From assembly GCA_031261015.1 (NCBI GenBank), contig JAISKG010000183.1:1-15460 (forward strand): a DNA stretch of 15,460 nucleotides, written 5' to 3'. The position numbers and the translations under genes are program-made. This DNA comes from Dysgonamonadaceae bacterium. GTDB taxonomy: Bacteria; Bacteroidota; Bacteroidia; Bacteroidales; Azobacteroidaceae. Below, piece by piece: positions 1,338 to 12,475 of this stretch (position 1 is its first letter; every line of letters begins with the position of its first letter). The notes under the pieces were generated by a model. That model worked only from the letters and a program-made list of their open reading frames with translations. It was not told where the DNA came from and did no database searches.

Positions 1338-3239
1338 TTAAATTACTCTCACCGCCCCCTTATCCGCCGAACTCACCAAACTCGCATAAGCCCGCAACGA
1401 TTTGGAAACAACCCGATTACGGTCTTTTGCCGTCCAAGCCTCTTTGCCGCGGGCTTCTTCTTCGGCACGGCGTTGCGCCAATTCTTCATCGGATACTAAA
1501 ACATTTATGGAACGATTTGGAATGTCGATTTCGATGATGTCGCCATCGCGCACCAAGCCGATGGCACCACCCGATGCGGCTTCGGGCGAGATGTGTCCGA
1601 TGCTCAAGCCCGATGTGCCGCCCGAAAACCGTCCGTCTGTAATCAGGGCGCACTCTTTGCCGAGGTGGCGCGATTTGATGTACGAAGTCGGGTAGAGCAT
1701 TTCCTGCATTCCCGGTCCGCCTTTCGGTCCCTCGTGGGTGATAACTACGACATCGCCGCTTTGCACTCGTCCGCCGAGAATGCCGTCGCAAGCCGCATCC
1801 TGCGAAGTGAAAACCTTTGCCGTACCTCGGAAATGCCAAATACTTTCGTCCACGCCTGCCGTTTTTATCACGCAACCATCGAGGGCGATGTTGCCTTTGA
1901 GAATGCCCAAGCCGCCGTCTTTGGTATAGGCGTGGGCTATGTCGCGGATACAGCCGTTGGCGCGGTCGGTGTCAAATGTTTCGTAATATTCCGATTGACT
2001 GCCCATTACCAAATTAAATTTGTTGGCAGGGGCGGAAAGGTAAATCCGTTGCGGGTTATCGGGGGATTGCGGGTCAAGCCCGCAATGACACAACCACTCA
2101 CCGTCATTGCGGGCTTGACCCGCAATCCCATATTTCACAATCGCCTCTTTCAATGTCAAACCATCAACCCGCAAAACCGAATTGTCAATCAATCCGCCTT
2201 TGTCCAATTCCGCCAAAATCCCCAAAATTCCGCCGGCACGATTCACATCTTGAATATGATATTTCTGCGTATTGGGTGCTACTTTGCTCAAACAAGGCGT
2301 TTTGCGCGAAAGGGCGTCAATGTTGTCCATTGTGAAATCCACGCCTGCCTCGTTGGCAATCGCCAAAAGATGCAAAACGGTATTCGTGGAACCGCCCATT
2401 GCAATATCGAGCGTCATCGCATTGAGGAAGGCGGGGCGAGTGGCGATGCTCAGCGGCAACACGCTTTCGTCGCCATCGCGGTAGTATTTGTAGGTATTTT
2501 CCACAATCAGTTTAGCGGCATCTTTGAAGAGTTTGATGCGGTTTTCGTGCGTGGCTACAATCGTGCCGTTGCCGGGCAATGCCAAACCGATGGCTTCGTT
2601 GAGGCAGTTCATCGAGTTGGCGGTAAACATGCCGCTGCACGAACCGCAAGTGGGGCAAGCTGCAAATTCTATCTTTGAAACTTGCTCATCACTCACGCTT
2701 TCGTCTGCGCTCTGTATCATCGCATCAATCAAATCCAACCTCACCACTTCTCCCCCTCTTGTGGAGGGGGTTGGGGGGAGGCTTCCCGCTTCCATTGGTC
2801 CGCCGGACACAAAAACTGTGGGAATATTCAGCCGCATCGCTGCCATCAGCATACCCGGCGTAATTTTATCGCAATTCGAGATGCACACCATCGCATCGGC
2901 TTTGTGGGCGTTTACCATGTATTCCACACTATCGGCGATGATGTCGCGCGAGGGCAGGGAATAGAGCATTCCGTCGTGCCCCATCGCAATGCCGTCGTCG
3001 ATGGCAATCGTGTTAAATTCGGCGGCAAAGCAACCGAGTTTTTCAATTTCATTTTTAACAACCTGACCGATTTCGTGCAAATGTACATGTCCGGGAACGA
3101 ATTGCGTAAACGAATTGACTATCGCGATAATCGGCTTACCGATTTGCTCCTCCTTCATCCCGTTGGCGCGCCACAACGCGCGTGCTCCTGCCATCCGACG
3201 ACCTTGCGTACTCGTATAACTTCGTAGCTGTATTTTCAT
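1338..3239 (-). CDS. ilvD: Dihydroxy-acid dehydratase, carrying two in-frame repeat insertions
   Basis: IlvD dehydrates 2,3-dihydroxy-3-methylbutanoate (and the methylpentanoate homologue) to the 2-oxo acid, the third common step of valine and isoleucine synthesis, using an Fe-S cluster and Mg2+ in the cytoplasm. The protein follows the E. coli-type enzyme closely from [10 protein letters not shown] to the C-terminal [17 protein letters not shown]. Visible signature blocks are [12 protein letters not shown] (119-130), [18 protein letters not shown] (195-212) with the cluster cysteines, [16 protein letters not shown], and [15 protein letters not shown]. At 633 aa it is longer than E. coli IlvD (616 aa by my recollection). 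The excess lies at residues 153-164 ([12 protein letters not shown]) and 371-393 (GIAGQARND...CGLDPQSP), both encoded by palindromic repeat DNA. Both fall in loops that vary in the family, so the enzyme may remain active. No other ilv gene is adjacent; the next genes are a lipoprotein and a transposase. Confidence 0.96.
2063..2129. repeat. 67-bp double palindromic element inside ilvD
   Basis: Two 27-bp copies (2063-2089 and 2103-2129) are perfect reverse complements of each other, separated by 13 bp. Each copy also folds by itself: ATTGCGGG and CCCGCAAT (8 bp) flank a TCAAG or CTTGA loop. The element is read in frame as ilvD residues 371-393. The translated motif CGLDPQS (or AGLTRNP in the other direction) is one I remember from many unrelated bacterial proteins that contain the same interspersed repeat; that recollection needs a search. 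Confidence 0.88.
2748..2783. repeat. Short hairpin repeat inside ilvD (CCCCCTC...GAGGGGG)
   Basis: CCCCCTC (2752-2758) and GAGGGGG (2764-2770) form a perfect 7-bp stem with a 5-nt loop, followed by TTGGGGGGAGG. In the ilvD frame it gives [12 protein letters not shown] (residues 153-164), where E. coli IlvD has a shorter, unrelated loop (KTKLSDQ). The outer boundaries are estimated from where family similarity resumes. It shares no sequence with the element at 2063-2129. Confidence 0.7.
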
Positions 3240-10047: not shown

Positions 10048-10977
10048 TTATTTCATAATTCCTAAAGAATCTATGTCGTGGGCGAGTTTGGTAGTAAAAA
10101 GTTCGGAGCCGGTTTTGTTTAAATGTGTAGCATTATAAAAATAGGCGGTATCGTATGAAATCGGATCATAATTATAATCAAGAATAGGAATGTCGTATTT
10201 TTTTGCAATGCTATCATACATAGCATACATTCCTTCGATATTTTTTACTTTTTGTGTAGCACCGATATATATAGGTGCATAGACAAAGATTACTTTAATA
10301 TTTTCAGCATGAGCTTTTGATAAATATTTATCAAATAGAGATAACGCCATACTATCTTGTCCATAATGTATTTCTTTTTGTTCGTTATGTTTTTTCCCGT
10401 CCCATTCATTAGTATCATTGCCTTTATAACCCTTAATTATATTTTCTTTCTGTGTGTTTCCTATACCTAAAGATTGTTTTACTACATTATAACCAATATA
10501 TCTGAAGCAAGGAATATATTTTTCTAAAACGTTAAAATGCTCATAATGTGAAATTGCTGTTTTTAACGAATCATCAAAAAAATAAGGGAAAAATTGTTCT
10601 CTCTGATAACCACCGTGGATAGCTATTGTAATCATATCGATATTCTGAATAATATATTTTGGTTTTATGTTAAATCTTTGATATGTATTGTATTTTATTA
10701 TTTGTCTGTTAATCGGACTTCCATCTATACCTAAATTATAAGAATTTACATTTAAAATAGAATCTAAAATCAGAGGATTATATTGTGCCCAAGCTCTGGA
10801 ATTACCCATTATAATAATATCGCTATTTATTTTACCAGAATAAATATCATTCCATCCCGCAAACATAAGCGAAGTAGTAAGTTTTTGCAATTTTGTAGAA
10901 ATGATATGATCAATCACAAAAGCCAATCCAAACAAGCCTATCGTAAATATAATCAGTATCTTGATAAATCTTTTCAT
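10048..10977 (-). CDS. Membrane-anchored SGNH-like protein paired with the MBOAT acyltransferase
   Basis: This 309-aa protein has one N-terminal transmembrane segment (about 5-24) followed by an extracytoplasmic domain. SDIIIMGNSRAWAQYNP (52-68) fits SGNH block I with S60 as nucleophile, and YNATHLNKTGSELFTT (about 281-296) fits the final block with H285. In most SGNH enzymes the last motif is DxxH; here the first position appears to be N282. Such proteins follow MBOAT genes in AlgI/AlgJ- and PatA/PatB-like pairs, where the MBOAT brings the acyl group across the membrane and the SGNH protein places it on a glycan. The start is 5 bp past the MBOAT stop, so both share one transcript. It is markedly AT-rich. 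The glycan target is unknown. Confidence 0.75.
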   Translation of the reverse strand: MKRFIKILIIFTIGLFGLAFVIDHIISTKLQKLTTSLMFAGWNDIYSGKINSDIIIMGNSRAWAQYNPLILDSILNVNSYNLGIDGSPINRQIIKYNTYQRFNIKPKYIIQNIDMITIAIHGGYQREQFFPYFFDDSLKTAISHYEHFNVLEKYIPCFRYIGYNVVKQSLGIGNTQKENIIKGYKGNDTNEWDGKKHNEQKEIHYGQDSMALSLFDKYLSKAHAENIKVIFVYAPIYIGATQKVKNIEGMYAMYDSIAKKYDIPILDYNYDPISYDTAYFYNATHLNKTGSELFTTKLAHDIDSLGIMK

Positions 10978-10982
10978 GTCTA

Positions 10983-12005
10983 TTAAAATTGAAAATAAAT
11001 AAATGTTTCAGCTTTTCCTCCACAGATAAAAAGCAATGCTATTAGAACATAATAAACTAAGAACTTCAAAATATGAGATTTTATATTTGATAAATCTAAT
11101 CCATGTTGTTTATCCCGTAAAATCCATTCGAAAATTAACATAATGGATAAATTTATAAATATTGGAATAGAATACTCACGATTTATAATATTAGGCCTAA
11201 TAAACAAATCTTTTCTGAAGATGCCTCCCAAATACCCCAACGCTTCATGTATTGTTTCCGCCCTAAAAAACACCCATCCAATCACCACCAATCCAAATGT
11301 CAACCCCATCTGAAACAGCTCTTTCAAACTCGGCAAAAGTTTGTTTTCCGCCACCGTATCGGTATATTTCCGGTTTTGATTTAACAAAATTAAAGGGAGA
11401 AAAAGTATCGCATGAAACGCGCCCCAAGCAATAAATGTCCAGTTCGCTCCGTGCCAAAAACCGCTGACAAGAAAGATAATGAACGTGTTACGTACAACCA
11501 TCAATTTCGAGCCGCGACTGCCGCCCAACGGAATGTACAAATAATCGCGAAACCACGTATTGAGCGAGATATGCCAACGCCGCCAAAATTCGGCAATATC
11601 GCGCGAGAAATAGGGAACCCTGAAATTATTCAAGAATTTAAAACCCAGCAATTTACCGATTCCAATCGCCATATCGGAATATCCCGAAAAATCTCCATAA
11701 ATCTGAAATGCAAAGAAAATCGCTCCTATCAATAACGTGCTGCCTGTTTGATCTTGGTAATTATCAAAGACTTGATTAACATAAACAGCGCAGTTATCGG
11801 CAATAACTACTTTTTTGAAAAGTCCCCAAAGGATTTGCCGCATTCCGTCAACGGCTTGGTCATAATTGAAAGTACGTTTGTTGTAAATCTGCGGTAAAAG
11901 ATTAGTAGCACGTTCAATAGGTCCCGCCATCGCCAGCGGAAAAATACTGACGAAAAGGAAAAAGGAGGCAATATCTTTGGTCGGCGCAAACTTGCCGCGA
12001 TACAC
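10983..12005 (-). CDS. MBOAT O-acyltransferase, C-terminal two-thirds (out of frame with its N-terminus)
   Basis: This frame carries most of an AlgI-like membrane-bound O-acyltransferase: YRGKFAPTKDIASFFLFVSIFPLAMAGPIERA, the EFWRRWHISLNTWFRDYLYIPLGG block, and SGFWHGANWTFIAWG with the histidine regarded as catalytic in MBOATs. Several hydrophobic transmembrane stretches are visible. 12005 is only a GTG codon inside the frame. The frame stays open upstream to about 12111 and contains LPVGISFYTFHTLSYTIDVYRG, a family-typical block, so 12005 is not a natural start. It is separated from the N-terminal piece by a +1 frameshift at the C10 tract (12093-12102). Without correction of the frame this part should be poorly translated. 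Restored, the full gene is 12423 to 10983, about 479 aa. Confidence 0.85.
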   Translation of the reverse strand: MYRGKFAPTKDIASFFLFVSIFPLAMAGPIERATNLLPQIYNKRTFNYDQAVDGMRQILWGLFKKVVIADNCAVYVNQVFDNYQDQTGSTLLIGAIFFAFQIYGDFSGYSDMAIGIGKLLGFKFLNNFRVPYFSRDIAEFWRRWHISLNTWFRDYLYIPLGGSRGSKLMVVRNTFIIFLVSGFWHGANWTFIAWGAFHAILFLPLILLNQNRKYTDTVAENKLLPSLKELFQMGLTFGLVVIGWVFFRAETIHEALGYLGGIFRKDLFIRPNIINREYSIPIFINLSIMLIFEWILRDKQHGLDLSNIKSHILKFLVYYVLIALLFICGGKAETFIYFQF

Positions 12006-12006
12006 A

Positions 12007-12423
12007 TCAATGGTATAACTTAATGTATGGAATGTGTAAAATGAAATCCCGACCGGCAGAACTAAGTGTAATAGCTTGATATTCAGCGAAATGGGGGGGG
12101 GGTAAAATGCTAATTAGTTGAGTTGCAAAAAAATCGTAGTACTTGAAAACGCCCAGAATGCCGAAACAGACCACGCAGCAAAGCGTTAAAATGGTTTTCC
12201 GCGCCCGTGCCTTTTCGTTTTTCATCAACAAAAGTCCTGCGCCGTAATTGGTAAGCGAACATATTAAAATGAGCGACAAAAAACGCCAATCCCACCAAGC
12301 GTAAAAGAAATATGAAGCAGCCAGCAGAAACAAGTTCTGAATTTTCACATTTTTGCTTAATGCCCAATAGATACAGAATACGATGGGCATAAAAACAGCA
12401 AAATCGATGGAGTTGAAAAGCAT
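12007..12423 (-). CDS. MBOAT O-acyltransferase, N-terminal fragment truncated by frameshift
   Basis: This frame gives MLFNSIDFAVFMPIVFCIYW...NVKIQNLFLLAASYFFYAWWDWRFLSLI..., the standard start of AlgI/PatA-like MBOATs with its first transmembrane helices. After ISILPPP, encoded by the C10 tract, the frame turns into HFAEYQAITLSSAGRD..., which has no MBOAT character, and stops at 12007. Had the tract nine C, the reading would continue ISILPPPISLNIKLLHLVLPVGISF, the expected sequence. As written, the product is a 138-aa protein without the catalytic histidine. It starts a two-gene unit with the SGNH protein and has a TATCTTTG promoter 18 bp upstream. Confidence 0.85.
   Translation of the reverse strand: MLFNSIDFAVFMPIVFCIYWALSKNVKIQNLFLLAASYFFYAWWDWRFLSLILICSLTNYGAGLLLMKNEKARARKTILTLCCVVCFGILGVFKYYDFFATQLISILPPPHFAEYQAITLSSAGRDFILHIPYIKLYH
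12093..12102. repeat. Homopolymer of ten G (C10 on the coding strand) inside the MBOAT gene
   Basis: A run of ten G in an AT-rich gene, at the exact point where the MBOAT reading frame breaks. Nine (or twelve) bases would join both halves in frame. Such tracts change length by slipped-strand mispairing and are a classical phase-variation device, but are also error-prone in sequencing and assembly. Confidence 0.95.
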
Positions 12424-12431
12424 ACTTGTAA

Positions 12432-12475
12432 TTTTGGCCGCAAAGATAATGAAAAATTAAGTTTTCTGGCCAAAA
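12432..12475 (-). promoter_or_regulatory. MBOAT-SGNH promoter flanked by an 8-bp inverted repeat
   Basis: The minus strand reads TATCTTTG at 12441-12448, a TAnnTTTG box 18 bp before the ATG, with a TTTG at 12471-12474 (22-bp spacer). The promoter is bracketed by TTTTGGCC (12432-12439) and its reverse complement GGCCAAAA (12468-12475), which might be regulator half-sites about 36 bp centre to centre. Confidence 0.5.

Follow-up and report, generated by a model that had tools for sequence, protein, structure and literature searches.

In the window, the whole 15,460-nt stretch of DNA that was analysed, an MBOAT O-acyltransferase gene is divided into two reading frames at a run of ten cytosines. 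Judged by comparison of sequences, this run is fairly probably a slipped-strand contingency site of an enzyme that acts with an SGNH protein on a surface glycan. Under this proposal the MBOAT and the adjoining SGNH protein would acylate, probably acetylate, the glycan, and bases gained or lost in the run at replication would bring the catalytic core into or out of frame, so that a cell's glycan would switch between a modified and an unmodified form. The assembled genome would represent the OFF form, in which ribosomes would stop about 1 kb before the start of the SGNH gene; the SGNH partner may therefore be translated less and would presumably be switched together with the MBOAT. Phase-variable acetylation at this locus had been put forward in an earlier, sequence-only reading of the same DNA. 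Comparison with relatives supports phase variation, from which we infer reversible switching in the population, but the one-base lesion assumed in that reading needs correction and one related copy is without the run.

Counted on the forward strand, the run consists of ten G with a T on both flanks (12093-12102), corresponding to ten C in the MBOAT coding strand. The sequence and the open reading frames confirm the earlier claim that the MBOAT frame breaks exactly there: the gene starts at 12423 on the negative strand, and the frame of the downstream piece stays open past the run on its upstream side, for 376 aa in all (Table 1). The C-terminal piece matches PF03062 with an E-value of 3.7e-25 (89.4 bits against a curated cut-off of 27) and contains the WHGANW motif with its catalytic histidine, in agreement with the family and motif named in the sequence-only reading. 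In an alignment this histidine (H346 of protein P0010, an orthologue described below) is invariant in 32 relatives. The N-terminal piece alone matched no Pfam family in the profile search. Full-length relatives of the C-terminal piece are mostly about 470-490 aa, which bears out the AlgI-like length of about 479 aa expected earlier for a read-through product, and the N-terminal piece aligns with the N-terminus of the same orthologue; the two pieces were thus once one gene. Among 120 listed proteins, 103 are full-length at the N-side, another 12 begin no more than 60 residues from the motif, and in 5 the motif is missing. Upstream, the promoter-like TATCTTTG stands 17 nt before the MBOAT ATG by motif positions. 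It is paired with a TTTG at a spacing of 22 nt, somewhat long, and the pair resembles the Bacteroidetes promoter consensus, TTTG / TAnnTTTG.

Table 1. Features of the MBOAT-SGNH region (window coordinates) and runs of the genus survey with assigned gene families (locus handles).
Feature	Location	Strand	Remarks
SGNH-like partner, 309 aa, intact	10048..10977	-	starts 5 nt after MBOAT stop
C-terminal MBOAT piece, catalytic core and WHGANW	10983..12005	-	340 aa; PF03062
N-terminal MBOAT piece	12007..12423	-	ORF of 138 aa; native until run, then out of frame to stop at 12007
Run of ten C (ten G on +), proposed slippage site	12093..12102	-	counted; same in L163
Promoter-like pair (predicted)	12441..12474	-	TATCTTTG at 12441-12448 and TTTG at 12471-12474
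Methyltransferases, shifted	L224 (G017) and L243 (G020)		same site
DUF6044, shifted	L234		
Hexapeptide transferase, shifted	L242		
Epimerase, shifted	L243 (G020)		
Radical SAM, shifted	L259		
FkbM, shifted	L295		
FkbM (sub-cutoff match), shifted	L250 (G020)		run of 11
GT2, in frame	L289		
GT group 1, in frame	L244		run near gene end
Methyltransferase, in frame	L251		run at its start
SusC-type, in frame	L221, L237 (G017)		run near signal peptide

The two closest copies of the window MBOAT within the genus both occur in genome G009, on contigs C48 and C88. The C48 copy (locus L163, protein P0010, 503 aa) has its own ten C at the position of the window's run, and its frame is intact. Between the window and L163 the N-terminal piece shows a pS of 0.68 and a pN of 0.07 (0.068), the C-terminal piece a pS of 0.74 and a pN of 0.13. 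The third base is kept at 58/137 conserved fourfold codons, and synonymous sites are near saturation. With low pN and high pS, both MBOAT pieces look constrained, and retention of the run over such divergence suggests its maintenance; the evidence for maintenance is moderate, coming from one pair in which the prolines are perhaps themselves conserved. Several marks of a phase-variable gene are found together here, namely a long run inside the gene, flanking frames that disagree in the window and agree in L163, and the presence of the run in both an off copy (window) and an on copy (L163), the latter a single orthologue of equal run length.

The nature of the lesion differs from that first supposed. 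In a three-way alignment the run has the same length in the window and in L163, and the window has two bases fewer just downstream; the run being equal in L163, the frame difference between the species is due to these two neighbouring bases and not to one extra base within the run. For the OFF state this leaves two readings: either the run is in a phase that is wrong for this species, or a small deletion has occurred next to it. This two-base difference at a run of equal length also suits a recent fixed pseudogene, in which a small insertion or deletion, within the run or next to it, inactivated the MBOAT in this lineage and the homopolymer is incidental, as would the additional MBOAT fragments on two other contigs of the same genome (G000:C189:5408-5893, query residues 174-340, and G000:C202:5-274, residues 2-91), which are contig ends or broken copies. 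Such a pseudogene is unlikely. No second lesion was seen in the gene pair from the window sequence and its open reading frames, and the low pN on both pieces likewise argues against it. Constraint on both pieces would also be accounted for by transcriptional slippage at the run, restoring the frame in some mRNAs and giving low expression without switching of the DNA; according to PMC3711429, homopolymers at least eight bases long are frequent sites of programmed transcriptional realignment. The characteristic sites named in that paper are runs of A or T, and the orthologue L163, being in frame at its copy of the run, would require no rescue, which leaves this explanation very improbable. In the second G009 copy, on C88, the run is interrupted and the frame at this place is intact. 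A related in-frame copy without the homopolymer had been named in advance as counting against phase variation; its occurrence in C88 weakens the claim for that copy.

Among the genus and family loci examined (57 matches, some places counted twice), in-gene runs of 9 or more besides that of the window were found in two distinct genes, L163 and that on G019:C351. The G019 gene carries nine C in a different loop, its N-terminal part being read in a different frame from the remainder; a second genus MBOAT broken at another poly-C run argues against an incidental homopolymer. In the best 80 of at least 588 related loci, of which the genus membership is unsorted, none of 87 MBOAT matches contains an in-gene run of 9 or more, and 2/87 contain a run of 8. 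In the same best 80 loci a short upstream frame without an in-gene run precedes 2/83 matches with enough upstream sequence (L043 and L048). The L048 contig, from a Spirochaetaceae MAG, also holds a G11 (5283) and a C13 (5623) about 2-3 kb from the MBOAT, where the surrounding frames are short. The homologous proteins P0007 and P0008, which start just after the run position, may be further out-of-frame copies or may be cut at contig ends.

The position of the SGNH gene 5 bp downstream of the MBOAT, given in the sequence-only reading, is confirmed. Its nucleophile serine (S60) and catalytic histidine (H285) are invariant in 31 aligned sequences. The usual Asp before the catalytic His is replaced by Asn; decay was considered as an explanation of this replacement and rejected, since at least 90% of the relatives in the alignment, 31 in all, share the Asn. 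The model of the protein has a pLDDT of 93.9 and an SGNH fold, and its structure matches are SGNH hydrolases, among them DltD, TesA and PatB. An intact partner with conserved residues again speaks against a pseudogene. In 36/38 rows (places partly duplicated) an ORF of 280-355 aa begins -1 to 32 nt after the MBOAT, the ORF being short or cut in the remaining 2/38, and the MBOAT-SGNH pair is therefore a unit in the genus. The SGNH gene of L163 (3812-4786 on G009:C48) has a tail like that of the window SGNH gene and a different body. This likeness of the tail behind a different body suggests that SGNH partner genes may have been exchanged.

For the MBOAT itself only a moderate model was obtained, that of the orthologue P0010 (pLDDT 74.6), with TM-scores to DltB of 0.49 and 0.58. 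Both the sequence and the model of P0010 match DltB, but for the DltB equivalog TIGR04091 the score is 144.6 bits, short of the NCBIfam cut-off of 375. Prolines 129-131 of P0010 adjoin a stretch with pLDDT <50 (130-132, 136-145), and this low-confidence loop sits between helices 117-127 and 147-163. According to the model, a break at the run would cut off the N-terminal helices from the core, where the invariant histidine lies, and the two pieces are unlikely to work alone.

Long G/C runs are frequent in the genome that carries the window, which is a draft of 2.0 Mb in 284 contigs (72% complete). Its G/C runs number 13 at a length of at least 7, 9 at a length of at least 9 and 5 at a length of at least 10. 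As controls, four genomes of the genus poor in long runs were picked after the run counts had been seen; they have 72 runs of at least 7 between them, a single one of which reaches 10, and against these controls the excess of long runs is significant (one-sided Fisher p 2.2e-4). An excess by the same test is also seen in G002, G019, G020, G017, G024, G007 and G001 (p 2.8e-4 to 4e-11) and is absent from G009 (p 0.27). Five or more runs of 10 or more occur in 15/38 genomes of the genus, four of which have 28 to 61. Elsewhere in the order 12/195 genomes reach five, and none exceeds 18; G135, a 1.3-Mb genome outside the genus, has 11 runs of 10 and is denser in them than the window's genome. That the MBOAT should break at one of only 9 long runs in its own genome tells once more against a chance lesion in a dying gene.

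The other eight long runs of the genome comprise five that are in frame in genes and three outside genes or at a contig end. By eye, the five lie in a SusC-type gene, a sensor-kinase gene and three others, none obviously a glycan gene; this, together with the small number of runs of 10 or more, counts against the switching proposal. These runs bear on the possibility, somewhat less likely even than a pseudogene, that the true MBOAT frame is intact and the consensus run length wrong. Homopolymers of this kind are error-prone in general, the draft is fragmented, and several runs of the genus stand at contig ends. In the same assembly, however, 5/6 in-gene runs of 9-10 are in frame, the run-poor genomes of the genus are drafts as well, and an independent species (L163) shows the same run length. 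The comparison with other homopolymers advised in the sequence-only reading accordingly makes gross length error unlikely, though an error in this one run may have occurred.

Surveyed across the genus, runs of 9 or more were examined in G017 (38/51), G020 (17/17), G019 (15/21), G009 (7/7) and G024 (9/33); the calls of shifted and in-frame runs are mechanical, and open frames can arise by chance. Of 67 runs in 60 loci, 12 were shifted, 29 in frame and 26 outside open frames, and of 27 runs in 20 further loci the corresponding numbers were 3, 6 and 18. After one shifted locus, L273 of G024, had been dropped as a repeat, 14 shifted loci remained in G017, G020 and G019, besides the G019 MBOAT. For eight of the 14 a family could be assigned to one or both pieces, L250 being included on a sub-cutoff match to FkbM (Table 1); long runs thus interrupt glycan-type genes elsewhere in the genus as well, which speaks for phase variation. 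Profile searches gave no family for L220, L230, L232 and L290 (one piece of each searched) or for L247 and L298; the last two encode similar membrane proteins, and their runs, 14 and 10 long, coincide in position and are both shifted. Run sites match in three gene pairs between G017 and G020. In two of these pairs (runs of 9/9 and 10/14) both members are shifted, and in the third the FkbM gene L236 of G017, with a run of 10, is in frame and L250 of G020, with a run of 11, is shifted; around this run 114/149 and 94/133 aligned bases are identical.

In-frame runs occur in glycosyltransferase, methyltransferase and SusC-type genes, and also in Hsp70, aldolase, ABC transporter and other genes without a glycan link, some of them of housekeeping type, which counts against the proposal; no family was found by profile searches for the in-frame L249, L252 and L244:2245-3276. 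L270 was dropped as an FkbM gene, having only a sub-cutoff match to another methyltransferase family. In TonB-dependent (SusC-type) genes, a G9 (L221:2973) and a C15 (L237:6014) of G017 and a C18 (L253:3036) of G020 stand at or upstream of the signal-peptide region.

Not all run-rich genomes fit this pattern. In G002, which looks complete, 9/11 runs of 9 or more in the stretches examined lie outside open frames, and there is thus no support there for in-gene switching. Many runs of G001, G007 and G024 belong to repeated intergenic sequence. A promoter-type switch was considered for the poly-C that precedes MBOAT genes in G001 and G007, and was rejected, similar intergenic sequence being present at several loci; no inverted-repeat arms were found in the four regions searched around runs of this type. 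At L169, L172, L173 and L176 (G001, G007), intergenic poly-C of 8 to 18 has similar flanks, such as AGCAAGTTA before the run or AACTTGCTCATTATCA after it, and on the strength of these shared flanks the runs are taken to be a dispersed element with a poly-C core. In G024, loci L271, L273, L275, L276 and L279 have the same sequence (INAKT.TGYVIIRFG.SRKH when translated) after C13-C14, likewise a repeated element. Azobacteroides is among the genera with over-represented palindromes in coding sequence, according to PMC4060949.

Taken over the genus, the survey makes it plausible, though somewhat short of an even chance, that a set of poly-G/C contingency genes resembling that of Campylobacter exists in this termite-symbiont-related group of Bacteroidales. 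The set would comprise acyltransferases, FkbM and other methyltransferases, an epimerase, glycosyltransferases and even, where a run falls at the signal peptide, SusC-type genes. Some sites would be kept between species, glycan surfaces would be reshuffled by slippage, and the window MBOAT would be an OFF member. The relationship to termite symbionts is suggested by the named relatives of the MBOAT, which include Candidatus Ordinivivax streblomastigis and Candidatus Symbiothrix dinenymphae, both termite-gut symbionts; further relatives are unnamed Bacteroidia and Prevotellaceae. The genus, which is related to termite-gut symbionts, is apparently Azobacteroides. Elsewhere in the window, an ORF that by eye resembles dihydroxy-acid dehydratase (1338-3239, negative strand) contains in-frame peptides at 2016-2129 and 2739-2783, e.g. 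CGLDPQSP..., which are presumably translated dispersed repeats, and at 108-728 (negative strand) an ORF resembles a REP-associated tyrosine transposase below the NCBIfam cut-off (50.7 bits against 80).

On/off switching at such runs is better known from Campylobacter and Neisseria. In Campylobacter, with phase-variable glycan genes such as Cj1295 (PMC3068675; PMC8355987), long G/C runs lie in surface-glycan genes, run length sets the frame on or off, and there are several such genes per genome, as here; Campylobacter belongs to a different phylum, and switching in the present genus is proposed from comparison. A glycan O-acetylation gene is likewise switched in H. influenzae, although oafA (PMC9558356) is an acyltransferase-3 and not an MBOAT. 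The E. coli K1 O-acetyltransferase, as cited in PMC3090145, is switched by slippage at repeats that, unlike the present run, are heteropolymeric. The closest precedent found is in the same order: PMC3090145 reports a one-C frameshift in a C run, among acetyltransferase-related genes of a polysaccharide locus of B. fragilis 638R, for which its authors suggest slippage. That case differs in that it concerns one strain and a run of four C, and a conserved long run is lacking. Capsule loci of Bacteroides, also in this order, have invertible promoters that switch surface polysaccharides stochastically (PMC12632263), but by site-specific DNA inversion and not by the homopolymer slippage proposed here; a search of that text, so far as it was available, gave no occurrence of the terms 'slipped' and 'homopolymer'. 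With regard to the enzymes, the pairs AlgI/AlgX and PatA/PatB acylate extracytoplasmic glycans (PMC9558356) and, like DltB/DltD among the structure matches, combine a membrane acyltransferase with a separate SGNH partner, as here.

No report of homopolymer phase variation in termite-gut Bacteroidales was recognised among the papers listed by literature searches. The mechanism itself is known; what looks new is its occurrence in this group, where several glycan genes apparently employ it. Surface glycans switched through homopolymers are familiar chiefly from colonisers of vertebrates, and some uncultured symbionts of the present kind live with protists in termite guts. If the reading given here is true, it would add a second switching mechanism for Bacteroidales besides the described DNA inversions, and a conserved set of such genes in these symbionts would point to phages or protist hosts as its driver, without an adaptive immune system.
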